DNA from: Clostridium sp.
Lineage (GTDB): Bacteria; Bacillota; Clostridia; Clostridiales; Clostridiaceae
NCBI GenBank assembly: GCA_031292145.1
Contig: JARLHR010000028.1
Location: 94,354-158,353, forward strand
Direction: 5' to 3'
Length of the DNA: 64,000 nt
Below, one piece after another: positions 23,180-49,005 of this stretch; position 1 is the first letter of the stretch, and every line of letters starts with the position of its first letter. The notes beneath the pieces were generated by a model that was given only the letters and a program-made list of their open reading frames with translations, was not told the DNA's origin and ran no database searches. A program made the position numbers and the translations under genes.

Positions 23180-23262
23180 TTAAAGAAGTAAATATTCATC
23201 ATATGCTAAAATATGTACCCAATCTTTGTAGTTTAATTTATATTTGGCGGATGAAAAAATAA

Positions 23263-24885: not shown

Positions 24886-24978
24886 TTTTTATCCTCCTTG
24901 CATCAATTGAAATCTTTGCAAATTTTTTCTTAGTATCTAGCATAATTCGAAAATTATATTTCTATGTATTGATGGAAA

Positions 24979-25040: not shown

Positions 25041-25136
25041 CATTTAATTCATTCCATTTTATTAACTTTGAACTATAGCTAATGTTTTATTAAGTTGACG
25101 CTATTTATTACTTAACCCTAATCATGTATTATTTTG

Positions 25137-25817: not shown

Positions 25818-25922
25818 TTCCCCATCCTCCTAATTATCGATTATAAAAATAACTGAATTTATTTTTCTGCAATTTTTTCTTACTCATTTGTTAAGCTAAT
25901 AATATTAATTTATCACCTACAA

Positions 25923-31861: not shown

Positions 31862-33541
31862 TCATTTATAATTCGATATTGTCATAAATATATTTCTTAC
31901 AATATCATAGGATAATTTCCTACGTCTAAACTCATCTACAATTCCTTTATTGTTCATAGTTCTTGGTCTCATGGAAAACCACTCTTCACTAACTCTTATA
32001 TCACAGAACTGCCAAATAAATGCTCCCACAATTTCTTGTTGAGAAAATACAGCTTCAAGTTGTTTTTTTAGAATTGATGCTTGCCTCTCTTCAGACCACT
32101 TTACAGATGTAGGCGTTCTGTATCCATAAATAGCCCCTGCACCTATTTCGCTTATTATAAAAGGTTTGCAATTGCCTTCTGTATCTTTCTGAACCCAGTC
32201 ATAAATTTCTTTGATATATTCACTTTCTGAAGCGTCTTCATACCATCCTGGATAAGCATTAAATGATATTACATCTGGCAAACCCAGGCTAATATCATTT
32301 TTAATCTTACAGCTTGCAAATGTAGTTGGTCTAGATTTATCAAGTTGTTTAATCTGATCAAATTGTTTAGCATAGCACTTTTTACCGTACTCTGTTTCAC
32401 TTGCACATTCATTTAAAATACCCCAAATTAAAATTGATGGATGGTTATAATGATTAACTATCATTTCTCTTATACAGTTTTCACTTTGTATATCAAAATT
32501 CTTGTTTTTCATACTTTCCTCAGTTAATCCACGTGCATGACTTTCTTCCCAAACAAGCAATCCTTTTTCATCACATAAATCAAGAAAAAGTTCATCATTG
32601 GGATAATGAGATGTTCTTACTGCATTTGCTCCCATATCAAGCATAAGATTTATGTCGTAATCTAATGCTTGATATGGTAATGAGCACCCAAATAAAGGAT
32701 GATCTTCATGCCTGCAAAAACCTTTTATATTTAGTTTCTTACCATTAAAAAGTATATCTTTGCCTTGAATTAAAACTTCCCTAAATCCTATTCTTTCAAT
32801 TAAATCATCTAGTGCTTGTTCTATTCCATCCATGTATAACTTTGTTTTCAGCATATATAATTTAGGAGATTCTAACTCATAGGCTTCTACATTTTCAAAT
32901 TTAAACTTCTCAGATAGCTTTATAGTTTCTAAACCTTGTATATTTGTTATAGGAAATACATATTTATTATCATTTAATTCAATCATAATTTTTGCATCAT
33001 GTGCTTTATGACTTAAATTCTCTATTTCTACAGTTACATTTCCAAACCAACCCCTGTCCTCATATGTTGGTGTAAAATGAACATATTTTATAAAAATATC
33101 TGGAAGAAATTCAACAATAACTGGTCTTGAAATTCCGCCATAACTTTGATAATCATTAGGAATATGGAGAGCTGAATCTTCATTAAATGAATTATCAACT
33201 TCAACTTCAATGCTATGAAGTCCACATCCAACATTCTTTATAATTGTTTCAAATTGTGTATATGCGTTATAATGTTCCACAGCTATTCTATTGTCAAATA
33301 TCACTTTAGCGGTATGGCTTACACCTTTAAAAACAAGTCTTATATTTCCTTCTGCTTCAAGGGAATTTCTATACAGTGCTTTTCCTCTATAATTCGAAAA
33401 TTTAGGATGACTTTCCCAACAACTTGGAACCGTTATTTTATATACTTCATCTTTATGATCTCCTGCACAAGTAGAAAATTCCCATAAACCATCTAATTCT
33501 AGTTGTTTTCTTATTTTATGTGCTTCAAATCCTCTTATCAT
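31862..33541 (-). CDS. GH2 glycosidase with beta-glucuronidase-like NxK motif
   Basis: This 559-residue cytoplasmic enzyme has the jelly-roll, Ig-like and TIM-barrel domains of GH2. The acid/base is Glu378 (WGILNECASE) and the nucleophile Glu465 (IISEIGAGAIYG). Near the C-terminus, Asn530-Asn531-Lys532-Gly533 (RPRTMNNKGIVD) lines up with the N-x-K motif that binds the carboxylate in beta-glucuronidases. That favours a uronide such as glucuronic or galacturonic acid over plain galactose. Some plant xyloglucans carry galacturonic acid, so a role here is possible. A promoter with the shared A/T-rich element lies 77 bases upstream of the ATG. The exact substrate is unproven. Confidence 0.85.
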   Translation of the reverse strand: MIRGFEAHKIRKQLELDGLWEFSTCAGDHKDEVYKITVPSCWESHPKFSNYRGKALYRNSLEAEGNIRLVFKGVSHTAKVIFDNRIAVEHYNAYTQFETIIKNVGCGLHSIEVEVDNSFNEDSALHIPNDYQSYGGISRPVIVEFLPDIFIKYVHFTPTYEDRGWFGNVTVEIENLSHKAHDAKIMIELNDNKYVFPITNIQGLETIKLSEKFKFENVEAYELESPKLYMLKTKLYMDGIEQALDDLIERIGFREVLIQGKDILFNGKKLNIKGFCRHEDHPLFGCSLPYQALDYDINLMLDMGANAVRTSHYPNDELFLDLCDEKGLLVWEESHARGLTEESMKNKNFDIQSENCIREMIVNHYNHPSILIWGILNECASETEYGKKCYAKQFDQIKQLDKSRPTTFASCKIKNDISLGLPDVISFNAYPGWYEDASESEYIKEIYDWVQKDTEGNCKPFIISEIGAGAIYGYRTPTSVKWSEERQASILKKQLEAVFSQQEIVGAFIWQFCDIRVSEEWFSMRPRTMNNKGIVDEFRRRKLSYDIVRNIFMTISNYK

Positions 33542-33617: not shown

Positions 33618-33671
33618 ATTATACTCACCTTCACTGTAACCGTATACCTAAAAAATTTAATATACTTTACC
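33618..33671 (-). promoter_or_regulatory. Shared activator element and promoter of the GH2 gene
   Basis: On the minus strand an A/T-rich block ending in GTAT is followed 20 bases later by TATAAT, the -10 box. No good -35 box is present. About 45 of 54 bases match the element before the GH31 gene. The layout suggests an activator bound over the -35 region. Confidence 0.65.
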
Positions 33672-33708
33672 TCAATTATTAGTGTTTTTTAAGAATCCTT
33701 TCTATTCA

Positions 33709-35856
33709 TTATTGAAATTTATAACTTGACGTTAAATTAATTTCGCCTTTTAATCTCATATCTTCAGAAGAACTACCCACAAGAATTTCAAAAGTTCCTT
33801 CCTCAACTGTCCATTTTTTATCTGCTACGCTATAGAATGCTAAGGCTTTTCTATCCAACATAATTTCAACTTCCTTAGTTTCACCAGCTTTTAGATAAAC
33901 CTTATTGAAGCCTTTTAATTCTATATTAGGTCTTTCCACAGATGCTTCTATATCTCTTACGTAAATTTGAGGAACTTCTGCTCCATCTCTGTTTCCTGTG
34001 TTGGTTAATTTAAATCTTACGGATATGTTTGCATTTTCTGCGCCTTCATTAACTGATAATTTTAAATCTTCATACTTAAATTTCGTATATGAAAGTCCAT
34101 GACCAAAACAGAATAGTGGTTCAACATTATAAGTAGTGAAATATCTATATCCAACAAAAATACCTTCGGTATATTTCACTGTTTTGCCACCTGGGAATTC
34201 TCCTATCTTATGTGCAGGGGAATCATCTAATGATTTCGGGAACGTCACTGGCAATTTACCAGAAGGATTAATATCTCCAAATAGTACTTCTGCTAATGCA
34301 TTTCCACCTTCCATTCCGTTATACCAAGTTTGAACTACGGTAGCTGCATTATCTATCCATTCAGTCATTTTTATTGGTGCTCCGCTGAGCATTACTACAA
34401 CTGCATTTTTATTAACTTCCAAGACTCTTTTAATAAGTTCATCTTGATCATATGGAAGGTCAATATCTGTTTTATCATATCCTTCACTATCAACATAATG
34501 CTTTATTTCTTTGTCCTTTGATACCGTAAGTGCATTGTTTTCCAATTCTAAATCTTCAGCAGTATGCTTTAATCCACCTATTATAATCACTGCATCAGAT
34601 GTCTTTGCTAACTCAACAGCCTCTTCTATTAATTTTTCTTTCTTTGATTTATCAGCACTATATCCTTTAGCATATTTAACTTCTGTTTGTCCACCTAATC
34701 TTGTTTTAATTCCTAACAACGGCGTAACTTCATATAGAGCTTTTATTTCAGCACTTCCACCACCATTAGAGTGTGTTATATTTGCATTTTCTCCGATTAC
34801 CGCCAAAGTCTTTATTTTATTATCCTTTAATGGTAATATGTTATTTTCATTCTTAAGAAGAACTATTGATTCTCTAGCAATATCTAATGTTTTTTGTCTA
34901 TGTGCTGGTGAATTATAAATTCCCCTTTTTCTATCATCAGAAAATACATTTATCTTATACATTAATCTTAAAATTCTTCTGATTTTTTCATTAATAATTT
35001 CTTCTGTTACTCTTCCTTCTTTTACAACCTTCTCCAATGGCTTTGCAAAAAAATATTCATCGAAATTATTCGTTACATTCATTTCTATATCCATACCAGC
35101 TATAGCTGCCTCTACAGTATCATGTACTGCCCCCCAGTCTGATACGACAACTCCATCAAAGTCCCATTCATCTTCTAATATATCTCTTATTAAATATTCA
35201 CTATGTGAACAATAGTACCCAAAGAGCTTATTATATGCAGTCATCATAGAATAAGCATTACCTTCCTTTACTGCTGCTTCAAATGCGGGCAAGTATATTT
35301 CCCTTAGGGTTCTTTCATCTACCTCTACTTCAACATTCAATCTTTCTGTTTCTTGGTTATTTACTGCAAAATGCTTTACACATGCTGCAACATCATTATT
35401 TTCTTGAACTCCTCTTATGAAAGGCACTGTTAACTTACTTGTTAAATATGGATCTTCAGACATATACTCAAAATTTCTACCACATAAAGGGCTTCGTACA
35501 ATGTTAATTCCAGGCCCAAGTATAATATCTTTTCCTCTTCCTCTTGCTTCATTTCCTAAAACTCTACCTGCTTCATGAGCTAAGTTAGTATTCCAAGTTG
35601 AAGCTAATGCTGTATTACATGGAAGATATGTAACATAATCATCTGAATTTCCTACTGGAACCCAGCTATCATCCGGAAACTCAGCCCTTACTCCCATTGG
35701 TCCATCAGACATTTTTATTGGAGGTATATTAAGTCTTTTAACTCCTTCTGTTCTAAACAGCCCATTTCCATGGCACATAGCAACTTTTTCTTCAAGGGTT
35801 AATTCCGAAATTATTTCTTCTATTCTTTCGTCATTTATTGATATATTTTTATTCAT
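33709..35856 (-). CDS. GH3 beta-glucosidase
   Basis: About 715 residues, cytoplasmic. The GH3 barrel, alpha/beta sandwich and C-terminal fibronectin-like domain are complete. The nucleophile Asp (about residue 240) lies in VVVSDWGAVH. The substrate-side sequence (MSDGPMGVRAE, GPGINIVRSPLCGRNFEYMSEDPYL) is typical of bacterial GH3 beta-glucosidases. In xyloglucan breakdown it would remove glucose exposed after the alpha-xylosidase acts. The gene follows GH31 after about 130 bases in the same direction, which fits that alternation. The start is set at the ATG with AAGGAG 10 bases upstream; a GTG codon directly before it is also open. Confidence 0.9.
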   Translation of the reverse strand: MNKNISINDERIEEIISELTLEEKVAMCHGNGLFRTEGVKRLNIPPIKMSDGPMGVRAEFPDDSWVPVGNSDDYVTYLPCNTALASTWNTNLAHEAGRVLGNEARGRGKDIILGPGINIVRSPLCGRNFEYMSEDPYLTSKLTVPFIRGVQENNDVAACVKHFAVNNQETERLNVEVEVDERTLREIYLPAFEAAVKEGNAYSMMTAYNKLFGYYCSHSEYLIRDILEDEWDFDGVVVSDWGAVHDTVEAAIAGMDIEMNVTNNFDEYFFAKPLEKVVKEGRVTEEIINEKIRRILRLMYKINVFSDDRKRGIYNSPAHRQKTLDIARESIVLLKNENNILPLKDNKIKTLAVIGENANITHSNGGGSAEIKALYEVTPLLGIKTRLGGQTEVKYAKGYSADKSKKEKLIEEAVELAKTSDAVIIIGGLKHTAEDLELENNALTVSKDKEIKHYVDSEGYDKTDIDLPYDQDELIKRVLEVNKNAVVVMLSGAPIKMTEWIDNAATVVQTWYNGMEGGNALAEVLFGDINPSGKLPVTFPKSLDDSPAHKIGEFPGGKTVKYTEGIFVGYRYFTTYNVEPLFCFGHGLSYTKFKYEDLKLSVNEGAENANISVRFKLTNTGNRDGAEVPQIYVRDIEASVERPNIELKGFNKVYLKAGETKEVEIMLDRKALAFYSVADKKWTVEEGTFEILVGSSSEDMRLKGEINLTSSYKFQ

Positions 35857-35986
35857 CACTTATTCTCTCCTTATATAATCTAGTTATAAAAGTTAACAAA
35901 TTATATTTTTTTGTTTTTTTGCAATTAGATTATTATATTTATATTGGATAGGAATACATATCCCTATCCAATATATTCATCTATTT

Positions 35987-38338
35987 TTATTTTTGCAAAT
36001 TACATACAACACTGCTGTTTCCTGATTGAACTATTATTTTTGTATCATTTCCTTCTATCTTAAATTCTGCTCCACATACCTCAGTTACATTTACTACATT
36101 CTTTAGAACAATAGTCCAAGGTTTATCAGTTCCTGTTGATTCTATATTAACTGTATTTTCATGCTTCACTACTTCAACTTGAAGACTTTCATTTCTGCTC
36201 ATATCTAAAACTTTTGTTGTAGCTTTAACATTTTCTTTTAATTCATAAGCCAGTATTGTAACATCTTCTCTGTAATCATAATCTGGTACATTATTCTCAC
36301 ATCCTAGTGCTATAAGGCTATTTTCCTTTACCATCATAGGTATACTTAAATAATCATGATCCTCTTTAATCCATCTTCCACCATCATATTTCTTACCTGT
36401 TATAAAGCTAGTCCATTTTCCTTCTGGCAGATAATAATTAGCTTGTCCACCTTCATTAAATATAGGGGCTACCAAAATTGAGTCGCCTAACATATATTGT
36501 TTATCCAAATAAGTACATGCTGGATCATCTTGGAATTCTAATATCATAGATCTCATTACTGGAATCCCTTTTATATTAGCCGTGTTAGCTGTATTATATA
36601 AATATGGCATTAAACTGCATTTTAATCTACTAAAGAACTTTACTACCTCTGAAGCATCTTCATCATACGCCCATGGAACTCTATATGATGTACTACCATG
36701 TAATCTGCTATGTGAAGATAACAAACCAAATGCAACCCATCTCTTGTATACATCAGCTGTAGATGTACTTTCAAATCCACCTATATCATGACTCCAGAAA
36801 CCAAACCCAGACATACATAATGACAATCCACCTCTTAAGCTTTCGGCCATTGATTCATAATCTGATTCACAATCTCCACCCCAATGTACAGGGAATTGTT
36901 GTCCACCAGCTGTAGCTGATCTTGCAAATACTATTGCATCATCTTCGCCTTTAACTTCTTTTATTGTTTCAAACACAACTTTATTGTACATTTGAGTATA
37001 ATAATTATGCATCTTATATGGATCTGAACCATCGAAATAAACTACATCTGTTGGTATACGCTCACCGAAATCAGTTTTGAAACAGTCAACTCCCATTGCC
37101 ATTAATTCTTTTAATTTATCTGAATACCATTTACATGCATCTGGATTTGTAAAATCTACTATGGCCATTCCTGGCTGCCACATATCCCATTGCCATACAT
37201 CTCCATTAGCTTTCTTTATAAAATATCCATTTTCTTTTCCTTCTTCAAATAATTTAGATTCTTGAGCTATATATGGATTAATCCAAACACAAATATTTAA
37301 GTCTTTTTCTTTTAATCTTTTTAACATTCCTTTTGGATCTGGGAATACTCTGCTATCCCATTCAAAATCACACCAGTTAAATTCCTTCATCCAGAAACAA
37401 TCAAAATGGAATACTCTTAATGGAATATCTCTTTTTCTCATTCCATCTACAAATTCATTTACTGTTGCTTCATCATAATTTGTAGTAAATGATGTAGATA
37501 ACCACAATCCAAATGACCATGCTGGCGGCATTGCTGGTTTTCCTGTCAGATTTGTATAATTTTCAATTACTTCTTTCATTGAATTTCCACCTATGATAAA
37601 GTAATCTAAACATTCTCCTGGCACACTAAATTGAACTTTAGTAACTTTTTCTGATCCTACTTCAAAAGAAACTTTTTCTGGATGATTTACAAATACGCCA
37701 TAACCTTTATTAGTAAGATAGAATGGAATATTTTTATAAGACTGTTCTGTACTTGTTCCACCATCTTCATTCCACACATCTACTGTCTGTCCATTCTTTA
37801 CAAATGGTGTAAATCTTTCACCTAAACCATATACCAATTCACCTACAGATAATTGTAACTGCTCTCTCATATAGATCCCTTGGTCGGATGATTCTAAGAA
37901 AGTTGTTTCTGGTTCAGTTTTTACATAAGCCAAGCCTCTATATTTACTTGAAGTCAGCTTTTTATTTCCTCTATAAAAACTCATTTCTACTGTGTTTTTA
38001 TCATATTCCATTTTAAGATTTCCCGATGTGAATGAAACCTTATTTTCATTTTCTTCTATTAAAACTTTGGTATTTTCATTTTCATAAATTTCAAAACTCG
38101 GACTTTTTCCTTGCTGCCCCATATAATGATAAGCTCTTACTCTTATAACATTTTCCATTGGAGATGAAATCTTATATGTTATAACAGGCCCTCCAAGAGT
38201 ACATCCCCTATTATATATTTTGCTACAAGGTGTATATATTGATAAAATATTTTCTTCACTTTTAGTGTTATAAATCTCTTGCGGACTAAATGTTTGAACT
38301 CCAGGCTTATTTAACCAACATCCATTGCTAAATTTCAT
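35987..38338 (-). CDS. yicI: GH31 alpha-xylosidase (YicI-like)
   Basis: This 783-residue cytoplasmic enzyme is very close in length and motifs to E. coli YicI. The nucleophile is Asp423 in CFKTDFGERIPTDVVYFDG, and the acid/base is Asp489 in HWGGDCESDYESMAESLRGG. HFDCFWM near residue 311 is the aglycone-specificity loop of alpha-xylosidases rather than alpha-glucosidases. It removes alpha-1,6-xylose from the non-reducing end of xyloglucan oligosaccharides, the signature cytoplasmic step of this pathway. AAGGAG precedes the ATG. The promoter upstream carries the shared A/T-rich element 84 bases from the start, and the GH3 beta-glucosidase follows. Confidence 0.95.
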   Translation of the reverse strand: MKFSNGCWLNKPGVQTFSPQEIYNTKSEENILSIYTPCSKIYNRGCTLGGPVITYKISSPMENVIRVRAYHYMGQQGKSPSFEIYENENTKVLIEENENKVSFTSGNLKMEYDKNTVEMSFYRGNKKLTSSKYRGLAYVKTEPETTFLESSDQGIYMREQLQLSVGELVYGLGERFTPFVKNGQTVDVWNEDGGTSTEQSYKNIPFYLTNKGYGVFVNHPEKVSFEVGSEKVTKVQFSVPGECLDYFIIGGNSMKEVIENYTNLTGKPAMPPAWSFGLWLSTSFTTNYDEATVNEFVDGMRKRDIPLRVFHFDCFWMKEFNWCDFEWDSRVFPDPKGMLKRLKEKDLNICVWINPYIAQESKLFEEGKENGYFIKKANGDVWQWDMWQPGMAIVDFTNPDACKWYSDKLKELMAMGVDCFKTDFGERIPTDVVYFDGSDPYKMHNYYTQMYNKVVFETIKEVKGEDDAIVFARSATAGGQQFPVHWGGDCESDYESMAESLRGGLSLCMSGFGFWSHDIGGFESTSTADVYKRWVAFGLLSSHSRLHGSTSYRVPWAYDEDASEVVKFFSRLKCSLMPYLYNTANTANIKGIPVMRSMILEFQDDPACTYLDKQYMLGDSILVAPIFNEGGQANYYLPEGKWTSFITGKKYDGGRWIKEDHDYLSIPMMVKENSLIALGCENNVPDYDYREDVTILAYELKENVKATTKVLDMSRNESLQVEVVKHENTVNIESTGTDKPWTIVLKNVVNVTEVCGAEFKIEGNDTKIIVQSGNSSVVCNLQK

Positions 38339-38421
38339 ATTAACACTCCTTATTTATGTAAATTATTTTAATTCATATTACATTTATAGATTTATAAATT
38401 TTCATATGACTTTATACATTG

Positions 38422-38475
38422 ATTATACTCGCCTTTACTGTAACCTTATACTCCAAAAATTTGATATATTTTATC
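38422..38475 (-). promoter_or_regulatory. Shared activator element and promoter of the GH31-GH3 unit
   Basis: On the minus strand TAAAATATATCAAATTT is followed by a spacer, then GTAT, then 20 bases and TATAAT. The same order and exact 30-base GTAT-to-TATAAT span occurs before the GH2, the permease and the YesL-like genes. It lies in a 377-base gap that also contains the hairpin after the first binding-protein gene. Confidence 0.7.
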
Positions 38476-38563
38476 CTAACAATTAGAGAATTAACTTATT
38501 AATCCTGCTTGTATACCCAAGACACCTTAAAAAGTTTATATAATCAAAAATAAATTAGCAAAA

Positions 38564-38650
38564 GCAATTAATAGAAGACTGCATCCACCTCTGCTTATCA
38601 AAATAAATATTGAAATACTTAAAAGCGGATACAGTCTTCTATTTAATTGC
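38564..38650 (-). terminator. Long hairpin after the first binding-protein gene
   Basis: AGAAGACTG, then ATCC, pairs with GGAT, then CAGTCTTCT, with an outer GCAATTA stem and a loop of about 40 bases. A similar structure follows the paralogous gene at 40631-40702, so it was copied with it. It may stop transcription or protect the binding-protein mRNA. Confidence 0.55.
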
Positions 38651-38715
38651 TTCAGTTAAACTTTCATAGTTCTGTGGAATAAACTTTCGCTTGATTCCCA
38701 CATTAATCTAATTTA

Positions 38716-40386
38716 TTAATTCCAAAGTTTAATCTTTTCAGCTACCATTTTGCTCATACCTTCATCTAGTTTATCTATATTCATAGCTTTAAGATCTTGT
38801 TGAATTTTGTCCCAAGCTGCATCAAAATCTGATTCATTGCCAAGAATTGCTTGAGTTATAGCTTTCATAGTATAATCATCAGCCTTCTTTTCAATTATAA
38901 CCATATCATTTGGTATAGTATATTGCCATACTTGTCCATGCTTAGATATCGGAAACTCCTTTGATGATGGAAAAAAATCCACAAAAGATTTCTTTCCATA
39001 TGCTTCCAAGGTAGCTTTTTCAGCCTCACTATAATTTTGGATAACATTATCTAAAGTGTTAGTTGTATAAAGATTTCCAGTTGAATCCAAAACTCCATCA
39101 CCTCTTTGTGGAAATGGATATACATATTTTCCAATACCAGTTTTCATTACAAAATTCTTATCTGTATTTTTTTGTTGTTGTATCTCTGGTAATACAACTC
39201 TCTTGCCATTTTCAACTTTATAATCTTTTCCTTCTATTCCCCAGTTTAATAAAACTTGCGCTTCATCTGATGCTAACCAATTTAAAAATTCAAAAGCTCT
39301 ATCTTTGTTTTTGCTTGTTGAGGATATTGCTACACCATAACCTCCACTATATCCCCAATCTTTCATAGTTTGGTCTTTGCATTTATCATTTAATGTAACT
39401 GAAAGTGGTGCAAAAGTTCTTTCATCCATGCCTGATGCGCGTAATGCCTTTGTTGCACTATCATAATCCCACCATACATCTGTTACACCTAAAACATTAC
39501 CTTGTACTATTTTTGCAACATACGCATCATGTTTTTGAGTAAATGATTCTGGATCTAATAATCCTTCTGCACTCATATGATTTAACCATTTAAAGTATTC
39601 TTTAACTTCCGGTAATTCAAATTTATAAGTAGCTTTTTGAGTTTGATCATTAACATTAAATTGTCCATCACCATCTATTCCTGCTACTGCATCAGCTGTA
39701 TCTCCACAATCTATCATCCATGTATAGTCACTTGCCATTAAACTCATTCCTATAGTTTTCTTTCCATTTATCTCAGGATATTTTGCTATATAAGCTTTTA
39801 TTGCATTTTCATAATCTTGTAATGTTTTAATCTGTGGATATCCTAATTCTTTTAAAACAGCATGTTGTAATTGCATAGTTCCACCTGGATTTAAGTTTTC
39901 TGTATGAACCCCATATGCTCCAACAGTATATATTGATGGATCTTCTGCACTACATCTCAATTTTTTTAATTGATCTCCATAAAGCGCTTTTAAATTATCT
40001 CCCTTCTTTTCAATATAATCATCAAGTTTAATAATAGCACCTGCATCTATTAACTTACCAGTATCACCTTTAGCATAAATTAAATCTGGATAATCACCAC
40101 TTGCTATCATTAACGGAATAGCTTGAGCGTCTCCTGCTACTGGATGAGTAAACTTTAAGGTTACTCCTGTAATCTCAGTTATTTTCTTTGCTACATCATC
40201 GTCAAAAGTCATGTCTCCTGACAAATCCGAGGTAAACATAGTTAATGTTATGGGGCTCTTATCCATAGTTGCACTACTTGAAACTAATCCTCCATTATCT
40301 CCCTTTGAGCTTCCACCACAGCCTACAAGCAAAGTAGTTGCTAAAGCAAATAAAATTATTACTGATATAATTTTACGTTTTTTCAT
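38716..40386 (-). CDS. ABC sugar-binding lipoprotein, copy 1
   Basis: This 556-residue protein has a lipoprotein signal (LLVGC, lipid attachment at the Cys) and the fold of family 1 extracellular solute-binding proteins of the LplA/YtcQ type, with GDYPDLIYAKGD and the C-terminal DDYTMKAITQAILG. It should capture oligosaccharides for the permease pair upstream in the same direction. It is about 90 percent identical by eye to the next gene upstream, a recent tandem duplicate. Differences cluster in several loops (for example VVWWDYDSA here versus DADWDYDSA there), which could tune ligand range. The gap to copy 2 holds a mobile-element remnant. Confidence 0.88.
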   Translation of the reverse strand: MKKRKIISVIILFALATTLLVGCGGSSKGDNGGLVSSSATMDKSPITLTMFTSDLSGDMTFDDDVAKKITEITGVTLKFTHPVAGDAQAIPLMIASGDYPDLIYAKGDTGKLIDAGAIIKLDDYIEKKGDNLKALYGDQLKKLRCSAEDPSIYTVGAYGVHTENLNPGGTMQLQHAVLKELGYPQIKTLQDYENAIKAYIAKYPEINGKKTIGMSLMASDYTWMIDCGDTADAVAGIDGDGQFNVNDQTQKATYKFELPEVKEYFKWLNHMSAEGLLDPESFTQKHDAYVAKIVQGNVLGVTDVWWDYDSATKALRASGMDERTFAPLSVTLNDKCKDQTMKDWGYSGGYGVAISSTSKNKDRAFEFLNWLASDEAQVLLNWGIEGKDYKVENGKRVVLPEIQQQKNTDKNFVMKTGIGKYVYPFPQRGDGVLDSTGNLYTTNTLDNVIQNYSEAEKATLEAYGKKSFVDFFPSSKEFPISKHGQVWQYTIPNDMVIIEKKADDYTMKAITQAILGNESDFDAAWDKIQQDLKAMNIDKLDEGMSKMVAEKIKLWN

Positions 40387-40458
40387 AACTTCCCCCTCTT
40401 TCTTAGTTACCTAAGTTTCGTACAAAGAAAACTATAGTATTTTCCCAAAAATAAATAA

Positions 40459-40632
40459 AGGATAATACCACGCTTTAACGTATAATTTTCTTTGCAACCA
40501 AAAATTAAGAAAGGCAGGTATTATCCTATGAATAATTTTACCTTTACTAATCATGAGTGTAAAGAAGAAACTACTCCCACTTTGGTAATTTCAGTAATAC
40601 AATTTGAACTAGAACCTAATAAACGCAACTAA
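40459..40632 (+). mobile_element. Probable insertion-sequence remnant between the duplicated binding-protein genes
   Basis: AGGATAATACC and GGTATTATCCT form a perfect 11-bp inverted repeat (40459-40469 and 40517-40527). The second arm abuts an ATG opening a 34-codon frame that starts MNNFTFTNHECKEE and stops at 40632. The layout of a hairpin directly before a start codon, followed by a very short frame, looks like the 5' end of a transposase gene whose remainder is lost. I cannot name the IS family. The 390-base gap otherwise holds only the hairpin after copy 2. Confidence 0.4.
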
Positions 40633-40702
40633 TAAAAGACTGCATCCACCTCTGCTTATCCAAATAAATATTGAAATACGCAAAAGTGGATACAATCTTC
40701 TA
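40631..40702 (-). terminator. Hairpin after the second binding-protein gene
   Basis: AAGACTGCATCCAC pairs imperfectly with GTGGATACAATCTT. It matches the structure after copy 1 in position and most of its sequence, and it has drifted more. Confidence 0.5.
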
Positions 40703-40776
40703 TTCAATTCCTTCAATTAACTTTTCATAGTAATGCGGAATAAACTTTCGTTTGCTTACCACATACATCTAATTTA

Positions 40777-42453
40777 TTAATTCCAAAGTTTAATCTTTTC
40801 AGCTACCATTTGGCTCATACCTTCATCTAGTTTATCTATATTCATAGCTTTAAGATCTTGTTGAATTTTGTCCCAAGCTGCATCAAAATTTGATTCACTG
40901 CCAAGAATTGCTTGAGTTATAGCTTTCATAGTATAATCATCAGCCTTCTTTTCAATTATAGCCATGTCACTATCACTTGGTATAGTATATTGCCATACTT
41001 GTCCATGCTTAGATATCGGGAACTCATTTGCTGGTGGGAAAAAATCTACAAAAGATTTCTTTCCATAACCCGCCAAGGTATCTTTTTGAGCCTGAGAATA
41101 ATTTTGAATAACATTATCTAAAGTGTTAGTTGTATAAGGATTTCCAGTTGAATCTAAAACACCATCACCTCTTTCTGGGAATGGATATACATATTTTCCA
41201 ATACCAGTTTTCGTTGCAAAATCCTTATCTGTATTTTTTTGTTGTTGTATCTCTGGTAATACAACTCTCTTGCCATTTTCAACTTTGTAATCTTTTCCTT
41301 CTATTCCCCAGTTTAATAGAACTTGCGCTTCATCTGATGCTAACCAATTTAAAAATTCAAATGCTCTATCTTTGTTTTTGCTTGTTGAAGATATTGCTAC
41401 CCCCCAACCGCCACTATATCCCCAATCTCTCATAGTTTTGTCTTTGCATTTATCATTTAATGTAACTGAAAGTGGTGCATAAGTTCTTTCATCCATGCCT
41501 GATGAGCGTAATGACTTTGTTGCACTATCATAATCCCAATCTGCATCTGTTACACCTAAAACATTACCTTGTGCTATTTTTGCAACATACGCATCATGTT
41601 TTTGAGTAAATGATTCTGGATCTAATAATCCTTCTGCGTTCATATGATTTAACCATTTAAAGTATTCTTTAACTTCCGGCAATTCAAATTTATAAGTAGC
41701 CTTTTGAGTGTCATCATTAATATTAAATTGTCCATCACCATCTATTCCTGCTACAGCATCAGCTGTATCTCCACAATCTATCATCCATGTATAGTCACTT
41801 GCCATTAAACTCATTCCTATAGTTTTCTTTCCATTTATCTCAGGATGTTTTGCTATATAAGTTTTTATTGCATTTTCATAATCTTGTAATGTTTTAATTT
41901 GTGGATATCCTAATTCTTTTAAAACAGCATGTTGTAATTGCATAGTTCCATTTGGAGTTAATTTTTCTGTATGAACCCCATATGTTCCAACAGTATATAT
42001 CGATGGATCTTCTGCACTACATTTTAATTTCTTTAATTGATCTCCATAAAGCGCTTTTATATTATCTCCCTTCTTTTCAATATAATCATCAAGTTTAATA
42101 ATAGCGCCTGCATCTATTAACTTACCAGTATCACCTTTAGCATAAATTAAATCTGGATAATCACCACTTGCTATCATTAACGGAACAGCTTGAGAGTCTC
42201 CTGCTACTGGATGAGTAAACTTTAAGGTCACCCCTGTAAGCTCAGTTATTTTCTTTGCTACATCATCATCAAAAGTCATGTCTTCTGACAAATCCGAGGT
42301 AAACATAGTTAATGTTATGGGTGTCTTATCCATAGTCGTACTACTTGAAACTGTTCCTCCATTATCTCCCTTTGAGCTTCCACCACAGCCTACAAGCAAA
42401 GTAGTCGCTAAAGCAAATGAAATTATTACTGATATAAGTTTACGTTTTTTCAT
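40777..42453 (-). CDS. ABC sugar-binding lipoprotein, copy 2
   Basis: This 558-residue lipoprotein has the same signal, lipobox (LLVGC) and fold as copy 1. Its gene lies 43 bases after the inner-membrane permease gene, so it is the member in direct operon contact with the transporter and probably the original copy. It differs from copy 1 by scattered substitutions and a two-residue insertion near the C-terminus (PSDSDMAI). Two similar binding proteins served by one permease pair suggest either a dose effect or different oligosaccharide preferences. Confidence 0.88.
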   Translation of the reverse strand: MKKRKLISVIISFALATTLLVGCGGSSKGDNGGTVSSSTTMDKTPITLTMFTSDLSEDMTFDDDVAKKITELTGVTLKFTHPVAGDSQAVPLMIASGDYPDLIYAKGDTGKLIDAGAIIKLDDYIEKKGDNIKALYGDQLKKLKCSAEDPSIYTVGTYGVHTEKLTPNGTMQLQHAVLKELGYPQIKTLQDYENAIKTYIAKHPEINGKKTIGMSLMASDYTWMIDCGDTADAVAGIDGDGQFNINDDTQKATYKFELPEVKEYFKWLNHMNAEGLLDPESFTQKHDAYVAKIAQGNVLGVTDADWDYDSATKSLRSSGMDERTYAPLSVTLNDKCKDKTMRDWGYSGGWGVAISSTSKNKDRAFEFLNWLASDEAQVLLNWGIEGKDYKVENGKRVVLPEIQQQKNTDKDFATKTGIGKYVYPFPERGDGVLDSTGNPYTTNTLDNVIQNYSQAQKDTLAGYGKKSFVDFFPPANEFPISKHGQVWQYTIPSDSDMAIIEKKADDYTMKAITQAILGSESNFDAAWDKIQQDLKAMNIDKLDEGMSQMVAEKIKLWN

Positions 42454-42496
42454 AACTTTCCCCTCTTTCTTAATTAAAACAGCTTTATATTATTTA

Positions 42497-43384
42497 TTAA
42501 CTTTTAACTGCCCCTAATGTCATTCCTGTAAGAAAATATTTTTGTACAAATGGATACACAAATAATATTGGACCTGTTGCAATCATTGTTATTGCCATCT
42601 TTATTGACTCTGGATTAACAGCTGCAGCTTGCATTGCTGGATCATTAGGATTCATCTGTGCTGCACTTGCACTTGCACTTGCAGCCCCCAAAACCTTCAT
42701 AAGTTCATATTGCAGTGTTGTTAAAGCGTCATTTTGTCCTGCATAAAGATAAGTATCAAACCAGCTATTCCATTGACCAACAGCTAAAAATAATGCTACT
42801 GTTGCAATTACTGGCAAACATAATGGCATAACTATTTTTGTAAATATTACAAAATAATTCGCACCATCTATCATAGCTGATTCATTTAAAGCTGGCGGTA
42901 ATCCATCAATAAATGACCTTATAAGAATAACATTAAAAGTACCAATTAAACCTGGTATTATATATACTGCAAAATGATTTACTAATCCTAAATTTCTTAT
43001 AAGCATATAACTAGGAATTAATCCTCCACCTACATACATTGTTACAACAAATAAGATTGTAACAATTTTATTAAATATAAATTCTCTTCTACTTAATACA
43101 AATGCCACCATTGCAGTAGCTAAAACTCCTGTTACTGTACCTATTACAGTTCTAAGTATTGATATCAAAAATCCATGAGGCAACTTGCTACTTCCCGCAA
43201 ATATTTCCTTGTAATTTTGTAATGTAAATACTCTTGGCCATATATGGATTCCACCTTTAACAGTATCTGTTGCATCATTAAATGAAACTGCCAATACATT
43301 TAAAAATGGATATATAGTTACTATTGAAACAATTATCATGAAAATAGTTAATACTATATCAAACATTGTAAATCTTTTCTTCAT
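42497..43384 (-). CDS. ABC sugar transporter permease (LplC/YtcP-like)
   Basis: This 295-residue membrane protein has about six hydrophobic segments and the EAA loop of importer permeases (ESAMIDGANYFVIFTKIVMP). The start KKRFTMFDIVLTIF and end FVQKYFLTGMTLGAVKS are typical of the LplC/YtcP branch of MalG-type permeases. It pairs with the permease gene 23 bases upstream, and a binding-protein gene follows 43 bases downstream. GAGGAGG precedes the ATG. No ATP-binding subunit gene lies in the operon. Confidence 0.9.
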   Translation of the reverse strand: MKKRFTMFDIVLTIFMIIVSIVTIYPFLNVLAVSFNDATDTVKGGIHIWPRVFTLQNYKEIFAGSSKLPHGFLISILRTVIGTVTGVLATAMVAFVLSRREFIFNKIVTILFVVTMYVGGGLIPSYMLIRNLGLVNHFAVYIIPGLIGTFNVILIRSFIDGLPPALNESAMIDGANYFVIFTKIVMPLCLPVIATVALFLAVGQWNSWFDTYLYAGQNDALTTLQYELMKVLGAASASASAAQMNPNDPAMQAAAVNPESIKMAITMIATGPILFVYPFVQKYFLTGMTLGAVKS

Positions 43385-43407
43385 TAGACATCCTCCTCAA
43401 ATAAATT

Positions 43408-44388
43408 TTAGTTGAATAACGCTAGTCCTTCCCCAGATTTTTTAGCTAATCTATTTGCACCAAATATCAAAATAATACTAACAACAGATTTAAATATACC
43501 TATAGCAGTACCATATGAATATCTAAACATTCCAATACCATAATCTAATGCATATTTATCTATTACTAAAGATTTATCTGCAACTATAGGATTTCCAAGT
43601 AGCATTTGTTTTTCAAATCCTATATTTAACAAATTTCCTATGCTCATTATTAGTAATACTACGATTGTTGGTTTTATTGATGGCAACGTTATACTAATCA
43701 TCTGCCTTAATCTTCCTGCTCCATCAACTTTTGCAGCATCATATAATTCTGGATCTATAGACGTTATAGCCGCCAAATATATTATAGCCCCCCAGCCCAC
43801 TTCCTTCCATATATCTGAAGCTGTAAGTATTCCCCAGAAAAGATTTGGGTCAGACATAAAACTTTTTGGAGTGCTTAAAATATGAAATTTTAATAATAAT
43901 TCATTAACTATTCCACTTGGTGAAAGCATACTTGTAATTATACTTGCTGCTACTACCCACGAAATAAAATGTGGTAAATACGATATAGTTTGTACGCATT
44001 TTTTAAACTTAACATTTCTCACTTCATTTAATAATAAGGCAAATCCTATTGCGCATGTTGTTCCAAACACCAACCCTAACAAACTCATAGCAATAGTATT
44101 TTGCATTGATTGATAAAATTGAGGTTCAGCGAATAATTCCTTAAAATATTTTAATCCAACCCATTTTTGGTCTAAAAATCCTTTTTCAGGTCTATAATCT
44201 TGAAATGCCGTCACCCATCCAATTAATGGTATATACGCGAATATGATTAACCACACCACAAATGGCATTGACATAAACATTAGAAATTTTTGTTTCTTTA
44301 TTAATTTCCATGTAATTTTCTTTTCTTTTTTTATTTTTTCTTCCACCAGTATTTCTGATATTTCTGCATTATTTTTTGAAATTTGCAT
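43408..44388 (-). CDS. ABC sugar transporter permease (LplB/YteP-like)
   Basis: This 326-residue membrane protein has a charged N-terminal cytoplasmic stretch, about six membrane segments and the EAA loop (DAAKVDGAGRLRQMISITLP). It belongs to the MalF-like LplB/YteP branch. It is the first gene of the transporter operon, with AAGGAGG before its ATG and the shared A/T-rich promoter element 65 bases upstream. With its partner it should form the importer channel for xyloglucan oligosaccharides, an inference from the surrounding enzymes. Confidence 0.9.
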   Translation of the reverse strand: MQISKNNAEISEILVEEKIKKEKKITWKLIKKQKFLMFMSMPFVVWLIIFAYIPLIGWVTAFQDYRPEKGFLDQKWVGLKYFKELFAEPQFYQSMQNTIAMSLLGLVFGTTCAIGFALLLNEVRNVKFKKCVQTISYLPHFISWVVAASIITSMLSPSGIVNELLLKFHILSTPKSFMSDPNLFWGILTASDIWKEVGWGAIIYLAAITSIDPELYDAAKVDGAGRLRQMISITLPSIKPTIVVLLIMSIGNLLNIGFEKQMLLGNPIVADKSLVIDKYALDYGIGMFRYSYGTAIGIFKSVVSIILIFGANRLAKKSGEGLALFN

Positions 44389-44452
44389 CTGTGTACCTCC
44401 TTATTTTTTCTCTAACTTATATATTAATTCTAATCTCAATTTTAAATTTGAA

Positions 44453-44480
44453 ATACCCAAAAAACTGTATATGTTTTCAT
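44453..44480 (-). promoter_or_regulatory. Shared activator element before the transporter operon
   Basis: A diverged copy of the A/T-rich block (ATACCCAAAAAACTG on the plus strand). The minus-strand GTAT to -10 span is again 30 bases, here with TAGAAT as the -10 box. Confidence 0.5.
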
Positions 44481-44565
44481 ATAAAAATTAGAGTTATTTT
44501 ATTAAATAACCTATAAGTTTTAATATTATAAATTCTATTATATATATTTTTTTAAAAAAATAAGT

Positions 44566-44605
44566 ATAGGCTTATGATTCTTATCACTTGAAATCATAAG
44601 CCTAT
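44566..44605 (-). terminator. Terminator of the YesL-like gene
   Basis: ATAGGCTTATGATT and AATCATAAGCCTAT form a perfect 14-bp stem with a 12-base loop, followed on the minus strand by a T run. It separates the YesL-like gene from the transporter operon. Confidence 0.85.
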
Positions 44606-44615
44606 GTTTACTTTA

Positions 44616-45314
44616 TTATGCATCACAATTATCTCTATATTGTTCTTTTATTTCATCCTCTAATTCATCAATTGCTTTTCTTTCTATTTTCATTATTAAA
44701 TAACATATTATACTTGCACCAAACAAAAGTCCAATTAAAGATGTTCCCGTAATCCTGATAAGTGCTAGTACAATAATAATCATTGATATACAACTCAAAC
44801 TTATGTACATCTTTTTAACTAGCAATTTTGTTGAAATTTTTATTAAATGTACAGTTTTTACATTATATCTAGATATTATAGGATAAATATAAAATCCTAG
44901 CATAATGAATATTACTATTAAAAATAAAAATAAGTATGAAAGATATGTATCTCCTATTAAACTAAAGTAATTCATATCGAAATATAACATACCAATGAAA
45001 CTATTCAATATTATTCCTATTAACAAGCCCTGGAAAAAGTTTAATTTGTAAAAATGAAAAAAATCTTTTGTAGGAGACACTTCACCATCTCTAACTAACC
45101 TTCCATTTACTGAAAAAAGTGTTGCTAATGCTGGCCCAATTACTATTGAGATTAGTAATAGTATTGGAATGGAAATACTCCCCTGAAAATTATACAGATA
45201 AAACAAAAATGGTGCTATCATTACTAAAAACCAGAAATTAATTACAAAAAAGTTACATATATATGTTGTAATAATATATAGCCTATTATTAAGTACGTCA
45301 TTTTTCTCTTTCAT
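44616..45314 (-). CDS. YesL-like membrane protein (DUF624)
   Basis: This 232-residue protein has about five membrane segments and the DUF624/YesL pattern: an N-terminal hydrophobic pair (FFVINFWFLVMIAPFLF), GPALATLFSVNGRLVRDGE in the first loop, and a central helix DFFHFYKLNFFQG. YesL proteins lie beside LplABC-type sugar transporters in many Firmicutes, but their role is not established. The start is set at the ATG with GGAGGAG 9 bases upstream; an upstream in-frame GTG overlaps that site. The shared A/T-rich promoter element lies 78 bases upstream, which ties this gene to the regulon. Confidence 0.82.
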   Translation of the reverse strand: MKEKNDVLNNRLYIITTYICNFFVINFWFLVMIAPFLFYLYNFQGSISIPILLLISIVIGPALATLFSVNGRLVRDGEVSPTKDFFHFYKLNFFQGLLIGIILNSFIGMLYFDMNYFSLIGDTYLSYLFLFLIVIFIMLGFYIYPIISRYNVKTVHLIKISTKLLVKKMYISLSCISMIIIVLALIRITGTSLIGLLFGASIICYLIMKIERKAIDELEDEIKEQYRDNCDA

Positions 45315-45391
45315 ACTTTTTCTCTCCTCCACCGATAAAAAAAATTAATAATATGCCTTTATAGAATTATATCTTTTAATTTCATAGCAGA

Positions 45392-45418
45392 ATACCATAT
45401 AAATTTGATATATTTTAC
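45392..45418 (-). promoter_or_regulatory. Shared activator element before the YesL-like gene
   Basis: The A/T-rich block (AAATTTGATATATTTTA on the plus strand) is close to the copy before the GH31 gene. On the minus strand the GTAT-to-TATAAT span is again 30 bases. The intervening 20 bases differ, so only the block and spacing are kept. Confidence 0.6.
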
Positions 45419-45505
45419 TTAAAATATTATATATTTATCTCTATAGCTCCTTAATAAAGGATTTTACTATATCCCAAGTTTTAATCATTAATTTGCATAT
45501 CAATG

Positions 45506-46333
45506 CTAGGAATTTAATTTCCTGTAATTCGAAGGAGAGATACCAGTGGAATCCTTAAACAGTTTAGATAGGTAGTAAATATCAGCAACGCCAACCATAT
45601 CGCAAATCTCTGTCAGCGTAAGATTGGAAAAAATTAGCAACCTCTTAGCCTCCTCGATTCTCCTTTTGTTGATATAGTGAATTGGTGAGGCACCAAAGTG
45701 CTTTTTAAATATGCGTATAAAATAATTGGGGTGCAGATGTGCCATTCCCGAAAGTTCTTCGATAGTTAAGCTTTTAGCTATATTTTTCTCTATATACTGA
45801 ATTATAGTATTAAGCTTTTCTACAATCTCCGAGTTAGATATATTAATGCATTGGTCAGCCGAGTTATTTATATAGTACGAAATTAACCTAAGCATGCTAG
45901 CTTTTAGCATTAGCGATGCAGACATTTCCATGCTGCTATTATGAGTAAGAAGCTCGTTAAAGATACTTTCTAATTCCCCATCGTCTTTAACTTCAATAAA
46001 GTGCGGAAGCTTTATTATATCAAATATATTCATTTCTCCAATTTTGGCTGTAAAGTGGCACCAATACTTGGTGAATGTATTCTCGCTGATAATTGAATAA
46101 GACTGTTTTATGCCCTGAGGCATTAGAAATATCTGACTAGGCTTTGGAAAGTACTCTTTATCCCCAATTTTAAGCCGCCCTTCACCTGAGCAAATAAAAT
46201 AAAACTTATTATAGTCAGGAGTATAATCTAAGTCTCTCCAATCTGTACCAACTTTGTTGAATCCGGCAAAACTTACGTTTACTTGTATATTTGAAAGATA
46301 ACTTTTAATTAGCTGTTTTTCACTATAGTTCAT
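45506..46333 (-). CDS. AraC-family regulator next to the transporter genes
   Basis: 275 residues. The cupin sensor (FYFICSGEGRLKIGDKEY, FLMPQGIKQSY) is followed by AraC helix-turn-helix units (MAHLHPNYFIRIFKKHFG and CDMVGVADIYYLSKLFKDSTG, ending SPSNYRKL). AAGGTGAT precedes the ATG. It lies directly upstream of the YesL-like and transporter genes and is the nearest regulator to all four copies of the shared promoter element, so it is the leading candidate for the activator that binds them. That link is inferred from position only. Confidence 0.86.
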   Translation of the reverse strand: MNYSEKQLIKSYLSNIQVNVSFAGFNKVGTDWRDLDYTPDYNKFYFICSGEGRLKIGDKEYFPKPSQIFLMPQGIKQSYSIISENTFTKYWCHFTAKIGEMNIFDIIKLPHFIEVKDDGELESIFNELLTHNSSMEMSASLMLKASMLRLISYYINNSADQCINISNSEIVEKLNTIIQYIEKNIAKSLTIEELSGMAHLHPNYFIRIFKKHFGASPIHYINKRRIEEAKRLLIFSNLTLTEICDMVGVADIYYLSKLFKDSTGISPSNYRKLNS

Positions 46334-46373
46334 AATTTCATCACCTTAAATAATCAATTTTATATATTTAATT

Positions 46374-46476
46374 ATAGGAAAACACTACAAAATATTAATT
46401 TATACATGTCCGAAAATTGCAGCTTCACGCGATTTTCGAGTATGTATAAATTACTAATAGAAGTTAGTTTCCTATA
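46374..46476. repeat. Nested inverted repeat upstream of the AraC gene
   Basis: Inner arms AATTTATACAT plus CGAAAAT pair with ATTTTCG plus ATGTATAAATT; outer arms TATAGGAAAAC and GTTTCCTATA also pair. The whole element is about 100 bases and could fold into one long hairpin. It resembles a small miniature transposable element or a regulatory stem-loop. It fills much of a 317-base gap, along with the terminator of the GH95 gene. A degenerate piece at about 46528-46550 (TTTTTTCATGTGGCTAAA) resembles the AGGCAYATGAAA repeat end. Confidence 0.55.
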
Positions 46477-46554
46477 GTTTTATATATCAAAATTATATAT
46501 TAGAATTGGTAAAATTAATATATGGGATATTATTTTTTCATGTGGCTAAAATAA

Positions 46555-46583
46555 AAAACTCGGGATTAATCTCCCGAGTTTTA
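46555..46583 (-). terminator. Terminator of the GH95 gene
   Basis: AAAACTCGGGA and TCCCGAGTTTT form an 11-bp stem with a short loop. On the minus strand it is followed by a run of T, giving a classic intrinsic terminator. Confidence 0.85.
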
Positions 46584-46650
46584 ACTGTTGAATAAATAAC
46601 TTGAAAATCAAATATATACTCATAACAAAGTCTTATGTCAACTTTAAGTG

Positions 46651-49005
46651 CTATTTCCTTTCAATTATATATTGTTCCCCACTACTCACCTCAAATGTTA
46701 ATATACCATTATCCAATAAGGTGAACGGTACATTCCTATCATTACATTTCACAATATAGGAATTACTATTTTTGCATCTAACTTTTATCATATTTTTTAT
46801 TGAATCTTTACAATCTGTGTTCAATGCTGAGGCTGCACAAATATTTATTACAGCTTTTGTAAGCTGTCCATTACTCCATTCCAAATCTAACTCATAATTT
46901 CCTCTTGCTCGAATTCCCCTTATATATCCTTCTGACCATTGTTCCGGAAGTGCAGGAAGAATATTTAGTACACCGTCATTACTCTGCAAAAGCATTTCTG
47001 TTATTCCTGCAGTTGCACCGAAGTTTCCGTCAATTTGGAAAGGTGGATGAGCATCGAACATGTTAGGATAGGTTGATTTTGCAAGTATAGTGTGAACATA
47101 CTTGTGTGCATTTTCTGCATCCCATAATCGTGCCCACATATTAATTATCCATGCACAGCTCCAACCGGTATGCCCACCACCATGAGAAAGTCTTCTTTCA
47201 AGAGTCTTTCTTGCTGCCTCCGCCAGTTCCGTTGTACCGTCAACCGTGATTTCTCCTGCTGGGTGCAGTGCAAAGAGTTGGGAAATATGTCTGTGTCCTA
47301 TTTCAACCTCTTCGTAATCTTCAGCCCATTCCATTATTGTGCCATAACGTCCTATTTTAAGTTCCGGAATCCGACTTTTTATTCCTTTCAGTTCATTAAC
47401 GAATTCACCATCTAATCCAAGTATATTTGCTGATTCGATTGTAGAATCAAAAAGTTTGCGCAGTATACTATTATCCATTGTAGGTCCTGCACAAATAGAA
47501 GTAGTGTATCCATCTGCAGTTTTATATACATTCTCCGCAGATAAGCTTGGACAAGTGACAAGCCTTCCTTCACTGTCTTCTACAAGAAAATCAACAAAAA
47601 ATTCACAAGCTTCTTTCATTGTCGGATAAGCCTGTTGAAGAAACTCCTTATCCATTGTAAATTCGTATCTATCCCATATATGAAGACAAAGCCAGGCAAC
47701 TCCCATAGGCCAATATGTAGCAGATGGCCAAGAATCTTGCGGAGATACATCCCCCCATATATTTGTGTTGTGATGAGACATAAACCCCTTACAACCATAC
47801 ATTTCTCTAGCCATAATACGGCCCTTTTCCTTTAACTTTTCAATAAGTCTGAACAATGGATCATGACATTCTGAAAGGTTACATTGCTCAGCTATCCAAT
47901 AATTCATTTCAGTATTTATATTTATAGTATATCTGCTTCCCCATGGGCCGAAGGTCATGTCATTCCATATCCCCTGAAGATTTGCCGGCAACTCACTATC
48001 CTTTCTACTGCTTGAAATAAGAAGATACCTTCCATACTGATAATAAAGAGCAACAAGAGAATTATCAATGCCACCATCAGCTATTCTCATGAGCCTTTCA
48101 TTTGTAGGAATAAATTCGTAAAGCTTATCTTCACCAAGTGAAATATTCATTCTCGTAAAAATTTGGGCATATTCAGCAATATGATCACTTTTTATAGCCT
48201 CAAATCCTTTTTCTTCTGCCTTTTGAATACGCTCTATACATGTTTTTTCAGAATCATCGTTATTAAAGTTCGTGGCCGCTGCAAAAAGGATAAGTAGGTT
48301 CGATCCATTTTCAATTATTAACTTTCCATCTTCACAAACAGCACGCCCTATCTTTCCCCAGCCATTAAAATCAGGTATTATTTTTAGCATAGCACAATAT
48401 TGTATTGAATTATCAGCACAGTGCCCCTTCATCACTAGGGAAAGAGGAAGTTTTCCTGAAGAAACATTATAGTTCTCAGGTCTATCCAATACAGCCTCCA
48501 GTTGTATTGTAAGACCTCCATTAGCTTTCATTGACATTGCAAAAACATTATCTACAGCACTTATTAGACTTTCAAGTCGATAATTAATTCCACCTATGGT
48601 GTATCTCACTCTTGATACGGCTGTTTCAAGATCCAGTTCTCTTCTATATGAATGCACTGTTTCCTTACCTTCACCATAACTGAAATTAAGCAGGATATTA
48701 CCTAAAGTCTGATATGAGCCCTGATAATTCCCTACATACGCCTCCTTAGCTAGTACGTCCGCCTGTTCCAGATTGCCTTCAAGAATGCATTTTTGCACCT
48801 CCTTAAGCAATTCCCTTGCACCGGAATTTTCATTATTGTTATCCCCTGCACTCCACACTGTTTCTTCATTAACCTGTATATTTTCATGAAAAGGATCTCC
48901 ATAGACCATTGCTCCTAGTCTTCCATTTCCCAATGGAAGTGCTTCAATCCACTCTGAGGCAGGTTTGTCGTACCAAAGTTTCAGCTTATTATTATCCAAA
49001 TTCAT
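46651..49005 (-). CDS. GH95 alpha-L-fucosidase / alpha-L-galactosidase
   Basis: This 784-residue cytoplasmic enzyme starts with the family pattern [27 protein letters not shown]. The (alpha/alpha)6 barrel contains NINTEMNYW (the Asn pair of the active site), PSLSAENVY (position of the general acid Glu) and [16 protein letters not shown] (Asp). GH95 enzymes are inverting and remove terminal alpha-1,2-L-fucose, or alpha-L-galactose, from galactose; fucosylated galactose is a normal xyloglucan side chain. It has no signal peptide, so the substrate must be imported. The gene stands alone between a terminator and the glmM gene and marks the right edge of the polysaccharide island. Confidence 0.92.

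Follow-up and report, generated by a model that had tools for sequence, protein, structure and literature searches.

The island and a shared promoter element

The subject of this report is a short promoter element in a 64,000-nucleotide stretch of a Clostridium sp. genome of 6.34 Mb, together with the two-component system, encoded outside it, that probably reads the element. This stretch (contig C116, positions 94,354–158,353) is referred to as the window, and its positions are used below unless a contig is named. By Pfam, a minus-strand cluster in the window encodes GH95, an AraC-family protein (AraC 45506, after its position), a YesL-like DUF624 membrane protein, two ATP-binding cassette (ABC) permeases, two solute-binding proteins, GH31, GH3, and GH2; all of these genes, and the promoter sites described with them, lie on that strand. 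Four of its transcription units, beginning with the GH2, GH31, permease, and YesL genes, respectively, share the element.

Orthologs were sought in a genus set of 68 genomes, this one included, with at most 32 (permease), 25 (AraC 45506), 22 (response regulator), and 19 (sensor kinase) candidates scored per genome in the protein searches. ABC importer permease B (43408..44388) is found at an identity of at least 73% in nine of the 68 genomes, its own among them; in the eight others, out of 67, the ortholog is 73–81% identical and lies within a conserved island. These eight genomes are called relatives here, and all nine carriers. Permease C (42497..43384), solute-binding protein a (40777..42453), the GH3 glycosidase (33709..35859), and the GH95 alpha-fucosidase (46651..49005) were likewise assigned by Pfam and compared with the relatives’ islands. 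Solute-binding protein b (38716..40386) is a tandem copy of a, with 509 of 558 aligned positions identical, and each of the seven relatives’ islands that extend this far holds a single match; the pair at 38716–42453 is a recent tandem duplication. The YesL-like protein (44616..45314), whose ATG start at 45314 was picked by its Shine-Dalgarno sequence over the GTG at 45332 given by the open reading frame tool, has homologs of 43–65% identity in the islands of all eight relatives. The GH31 enzyme (35987..38338) scores 1299 bits against NCBIfam NF007940, far above the alpha-xylosidase cut-off of 606, which makes xyloglucan, or some other alpha-xyloside, a reasonable guess for the substrate. The GH3 gene is likely transcribed from the GH31 promoter, to judge only from its place behind GH31. 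At E ≤ 1e-60, none of the 67 other genus genomes contains a match to the GH2 glycosidase (31862..33541).

At all four promoters, an A/T-rich block is followed by GTAT-N20-TA[TG]AAT, with the G of GTAT at 33647 (GH2), 38451 (GH31), 44456 (permease), and 45395 (YesL). Of the seven exact occurrences of the pattern in the window, these four alone have, on visual inspection, the A/T-rich block ahead of them. The initial annotation had described this block and a distance of exactly 30 bases from GTAT to the end of the −10 box, and both descriptions hold at all four positions. Its coordinates, however, mixed two landmarks (33618 and 38422 are the ends of −10 boxes, 44453 and 45392 the ends of GTAT), and its range of 65–84 bases to the start codon is replaced by 103 (GH2), 110 (GH31), 65 (permease), and 78 (YesL) bases when the end of GTAT is used throughout. 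Comparison with the relatives also moves the upstream edge of the element about 15 bases beyond the block and GTAT first described, to CTCTAAT. The complete site is 41 bp long, has a consensus of about CTCTAATTTTTATATGAAAACATATACATTTTTATGGGTAT, and is laid out like two tandem half-sites 21–23 bp apart. It occupies 44453..44493 at the permease promoter (CTCTAATTTTTATATGAAAACATATACAGTTTTTTGGGTAT), where the −10 box TAGAAT lies 20 bases past GTAT at 44427..44432. The corresponding operator-like sites and TATAAT boxes are at 38448..38488 and 38422..38427 (GH31), 33644..33684 and 33618..33623 (GH2), and 45392..45432 and 45366..45371 (YesL).

In leave-one-out tests, a 60-bp matrix built from three of the sites ranked the remaining site fourth among 127,882 window positions, immediately behind the three used for training, in all four cases; with the upstream 36 bp only, the permease site dropped to rank 71. 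In the genome-wide searches reported here, a portion of the first-look candidates was scored, namely 150 per genome for the four-site model, model R3, and the held-out scan, and 74 per genome for the genus scan with model R2. The four-site model recovered its own four sites at E ≤ 5.1e-7 across the whole genome, the next match having an E of 0.057. Model R3, for which 12 sites from other species were used and no sequence of this genome, found the permease site at E 7.7e-13, the GH31 site at 2.7e-9, and the GH2 site at 4.7e-4; the YesL site was the weakest (E 0.685 genome-wide, 0.0042 in 318 kb). A possible fifth target on another contig (C172; R3 E 2.0e-4) was rejected, as it sits within a coding frame.

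The four promoters had also been said to have no good −35 box. Their best matches to TTGACA are indeed only two or three positions of six, but such matches are commonplace: among the 201 TATAAT words of the window, 50 reach two or fewer and 104 exactly three. The poor −35 region is thus real but common in A/T-rich DNA and says little by itself. Nor are the GH2 and GH31 promoters independent of each other. From GTAT onward, the GH2 promoter resembles the GH31 promoter of the same genome at z 10.9 against shuffles, versus z 0.5–3.9 for six other GH31 promoters. The simplest reading is that the added GH2 gene would have joined the regulon via a copy of the GH31 promoter; the four sites therefore amount to three independent ones and one copy.

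Conservation of the site in Clostridium and other Bacillota

In the relatives, the island is ordered YesL, permeases, solute-binding protein, GH31, GH3, and GH95, with three exceptions: no GH31 was found in G032, no GH95 in G038, and the island of G102 is split over contigs. The matrix of the four sites from the Clostridium sp. genome finds the element upstream of the orthologous permease in all eight relatives, and a −10-like word follows at an unchanged offset; there, the site is much better conserved than the next 20 bases. Further sites precede GH31 at five island loci (L071, L072, L073, L078, and L088) and in G102, and YesL at L071. Across 22 sites, the mean −10 score is +4.8 bits at offset 24 and negative at every other offset; 21 of the 22 score above zero at offset 24, and 16 have their best −10 word there. 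Since model R2 was built from the sites of the nine carriers, its matches in those genomes arise by construction and are no independent proof. Such proof comes from R3 and from the GH31 site of G102, which was held out of the model and was recovered at E 1.7e-10 with a spacing of 30. In the 59 genus genomes without a permease ortholog, R2 returned no site at E < 3.8e-6. Paralogous importers (L050–L070; permeases 38–58% identical) were considered as bearers of the site and rejected, none exceeding 10 bits.

The comparison was extended to other Bacillota, mostly Bacilli, by a scan of named genomes in which the best 80 permease loci were kept and 73 (L090–L162) examined. With the 41-bp matrix, 35 of the 73 had a site scoring more than 8 bits ahead of the permease gene, all at p ≤ 0.01 in 100 shuffles each. 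Among these 35 loci, the best −10 word lies at offset 24 in 31, at offset 25 in two, and elsewhere in two. The matrix contained no −10 box; four of the loci (L090, L091, L092, and L095) had contributed to it, and without them the count at offset 24 is 28 of 31. Many of the loci are from close species, and 26 distinct sequences were left (L092 and L134 omitted). In these 26 sites, a lag of 21 is the best of 23 lags for a tandem period (z 3.7; 0 of 500 column shuffles), and in the Clostridium set (18 sites) the lag is 23 (z 2.5, p 0.002). Both lags would fit two half-sites two turns of DNA apart.

A separate observation concerns catabolite repression. Scored against the cre consensus, a word matching nine of the ten positions occurs in the permease sites of L090, L124, and L160 and in the GH31 sites of L072, L073, and L078. 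This places it downstream of the activator site and upstream of the −10 box, as though the promoter had catabolite repression incorporated in it. A CcpA cre box is not claimed for the N20 of the four promoters in the window, which match at six to eight of ten positions, only GH2 reaching p 0.04.

A distant two-component system as the putative regulator

Systems of the YesM/YesN type are numerous in Bacillota. One such system is encoded on the same contig, at about 63.4–66.7 kb of C116 and some 28 kb to the left of the window. It comprises a kinase of 592 amino acids (Cache, HAMP, and His_kinase domains) and a response regulator of 512 amino acids (receiver and AraC-type helix-turn-helix; about 63.4–64.9 kb), both recognized by Pfam in intact frames. 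With the Lederbergia kinase that is encoded beside this importer in Bacilli (L090) as query, orthologs were found in nine of the 68 genus genomes at E 3.4e-131 to 4.4e-115, the next match having an E of 1.1e-56 (G021). The nine genomes with the kinase ortholog are the same nine that have the orthologous permease, and in a search with the regulator they were among the first ten matches, the tenth being G058. The kinase is 48–74% identical to those of the seven relatives in which it was fully read, and the regulator 48–82% identical to those of all eight.

In the eight relatives, the system lies within the same island, although in G102 it is on the contig with GH31 and not on the one with the permease. 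The distance from kinase to permease is about 9–15 kb in seven relatives and about 71 kb in the Clostridium sp. genome, where the separation is apparently due to a swollen island. Between the system and its putative targets, the window holds GH5, GH51, GH42, and GH43 genes, a second AraC gene at 22319, and genes for choline-binding-repeat proteins (12373–29666), most of which have no close match in the stretches fetched from relatives. AraC 22319 was considered as the regulator but lacks support: its relatives (48–51% identical) occur in only two of the eight islands fetched (G050 and G032).

Linkage extends to the other Bacillota, mostly Bacilli, where a YesM-like kinase is within reach in 34 of the 35 site-bearing loci. 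The genome G058, which has neither such a permease nor a kinase ortholog, provides another kind of evidence. It retains a regulator homolog that is 43% identical and whose frame is broken by a single stop. A weak site (E 0.0119) of the form GTAT-N20-TAGAAT lies some 6 kb away, upstream of an operon for a different type of importer; site and homolog are at about 7162–7226 and 13386–14984 of L277 (C147). The system of G058 may have been reused and then decayed, and it would constitute an independent case linking the site to a homolog of the regulator. On the strength of this shared distribution, the linkage in Bacilli, and the regulator homolog of G058 with a site-like sequence nearby, the two-component system is favored, and we consider it quite probable that a YesM/YesN-type system, similar to XygSR or AxuRS, uses the element as its operator and activates genes for import and side-chain removal. 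The class II-like activator site and the regulon joining import (permeases and solute-binding proteins) to side-chain removal (GH31 and GH2), both anticipated in the initial annotation, are well supported by the spacing preserved across species.

Several observations weigh against this assignment. No site was found upstream of the system’s own kinase gene (L231; R3, E ≤ 0.5). The recognition helices agree between the carriers and the site-bearing Bacilli, without a sharp split from the Bacilli that lack a site, and of the 38 loci in which no site can be recognized, 30 also have a related kinase, so that the site there has diverged or is a different one. The best −10 word is off offset 24 in six of the 22 sites, including four of the eight relatives’ permease sites, and the GH31 site of G038 (L071) is a clear exception, with TATAAT seven bases closer. 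The co-occurrence could reflect the inheritance of a single island, and linked genes are no proof of binding. Because of its R3 value, YesL is the least certain member of the regulon. In G021, which has neither the orthologous permease nor the two-component system, a GH31-GH3 operon carries a weaker site (E 3.8e-6, spacing 30; about 1487–1553 of L242, C15:177.8 kb) that is either an orphan or read by a paralogue. Finally, there are matches outside the island in G020 (7.4e-5) and, twice, in G055 (6–7e-4). On inspection, neither these (C197 of G020 and two at C73 of G055) nor a match on C258 of G000 were accepted as members. One of the G055 matches (C73:85179; about 1680–1745 of L272, E 6.7e-4) lies well away from the island, resembles the site, and has a plausible distance to a −10 box.

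An alternative reader of the site would be another activator, encoded elsewhere, unlinked to the island, and conserved in the carriers. The regulators of the carriers were compared only in part, and G021 keeps a site without the system. Such a protein would, however, have to account for a site distribution that tracks the two-component system, for the same linkage in Bacilli, and for the regulator homolog near a site-like sequence in G058, and we regard it as unlikely.

The initial annotation had named AraC 45506 (45506..46333) as the probable activator. The protein belongs to the AraC family and has an AraC-type ligand-binding domain; its gene adjoins the YesL promoter, and binding to tandem sites that cover the −35 region is frequent among AraC proteins. 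However, none of the 67 other genus genomes contains a match to it at E ≤ 1e-30 (58 genomes with at most 25 candidates scored each, nine in a second search), although eight of them retain the element. When all candidates of the eight other carriers were scored, the best match had an E of 7.2e-23 at 30% identity, with matches confined to the helix-turn-helix reaching up to 41%, and the helices of AraC 45506 differ from those common to the carriers’ regulators. Because it lacks an ortholog in the eight other carriers, AraC 45506 is very unlikely to be the activator, and that part of the annotation is abandoned. The arrangement of the relatives’ islands bears on the same question: PGM adjoins YesL with no AraC or GH95 gene between them in three of the eight (L072, L073, and L075), one other gene intervenes in L071, and in the remaining four PGM is outside the stretch fetched. 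In the window, the AraC 45506 gene and the GH95 gene adjoining it (45506–49005) lie between PGM and YesL. Since PGM and YesL are neighbors in these three relatives, the AraC 45506 gene looks like an insert. The only strong relative of AraC 45506 among the candidates scored (48% identical) comes from another family (G080, L010) and is encoded opposite a gene that, from its sequence, we take to be for a GH29-like fucosidase. AraC 45506 may control fucosidase genes, with GH95 as a possible real target.

We also regard it as very unlikely that the block acts as a repressor site, or as an A/T-rich UP element that no specific activator binds. Such a reading would suit its A/T richness, its place upstream of the promoter, and the poor −35 region. 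The site has, however, specific bases at both ends (CTAAT and GGTAT), and its spacing to the −10 box is fixed while the N20 drifts, which a repressor site would not need. That the similarity merely reflects recent copying of promoter DNA inside the island, as seen for GH2, can be virtually dismissed, and is largely refuted for the other three sites: beyond the operator and −10 box, the GH2 promoter cannot be aligned with that of the permease (z 1.8) or YesL (z 1.0), and the permease, GH31, and YesL sites are present in other species.

A proposed model of activation and its relation to known systems

From the observed element, its spacing, its conservation, and its co-occurrence with the YesM/YesN-type system, we infer a signal, phosphorylation, binding, and activation as follows. 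A xyloglucan-oligosaccharide signal would reach the membrane kinase, and the phosphorylated regulator would bind a pair of half-sites arranged in tandem at a distance of two DNA turns. Of these, the downstream one would end in GGTAT on the −35 region, where the regulator would stand in for the missing −35 contact and place the polymerase on the −10 box 20 bases further on, in a class II-like activation. We lean, if only slightly, toward the broader proposal that this candidate operator geometry (a tandem site of 41 bp with GGTAT on the −35 region, then 20 bases to the −10 box) predates the split of Clostridia and Bacilli and has persisted with a xyloglucan importer and its two-component system, while genes join the regulon by copying of whole promoters, as GH2 would have done.

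Class II activator promoters of AraC-family regulators of the MelR, RhaS, and XylS type have tandem half-sites, the proximal one of which lies over the −35 region at a fixed distance from the −10 box. The promoters described here share this layout; unlike in those systems, the proposed regulator is a response regulator and not a ligand-binding AraC protein. A counterpart among two-component systems is XygS/XygR of Ruminiclostridium cellulolyticum, the original study of which is said to be that of Kampik in 2020. This system has an AraC-type regulator, lies among genes for a xyloglucan-oligosaccharide ABC importer, GH31, and GH3, and is reported to activate the importer and cytosolic enzymes (PMC8576529, PMC8579813, PMC4780118) and also its own genes (PMC8576529). 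The Clostridium sp. system similarly has importer, GH31, and GH3 in its putative regulon, with sites before the permease and GH31-GH3 units and GH3 included by position only. It differs from XygSR in that its kinase gene has no upstream element and that it lies about 71 kb from the importer; the two are likened by description alone. For Caldicellulosiruptor bescii, one study predicts AxuRS as a two-component regulator of axuABC, an alpha-xyloside ABC importer adjoining an alpha-xylosidase (PMC8579813). For regulators of the AraC type and of two-component systems, the same study describes tandem repeats that lie upstream of promoters and were searched with a period of 21 or 32 bp, and it takes these regulators to be activators (PMC8579813). 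The 21–23-bp tandem period of the present site is like the 21-bp repeats described there for AraC-type regulators, and AxuRS is likened by description, not by sequence or motif.

Two further systems of R. cellulolyticum, XuaDSR (PMC12175519) and XydSR (PMC3572039), are reported to control hemicellulose genes, XydR having an AraC-type helix-turn-helix. For XuaDSR, conserved binding sites reportedly could not be identified (PMC12175519). Unlike in that account, a putative site is visible by comparison for the system described here. Literature searches on this site, or on sites of YesM/YesN-type systems, turned up nothing on it among the matches listed.

The element is thus a predicted operator with good support, belonging to a kind of system already known, and comparison yields for it a precise site, a geometry, a set of targets, and a likely regulator. 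The comparison corrects a natural mistake, in that the nearest AraC gene is not that of the regulator, and GH2 exemplifies how promoter copying can bring a gene into a regulon. If the assignment is true, a two-component system can sit 70 kb from its targets and yet be traced by its site, which would offer a handle on two-component regulators whose sites have not been found.

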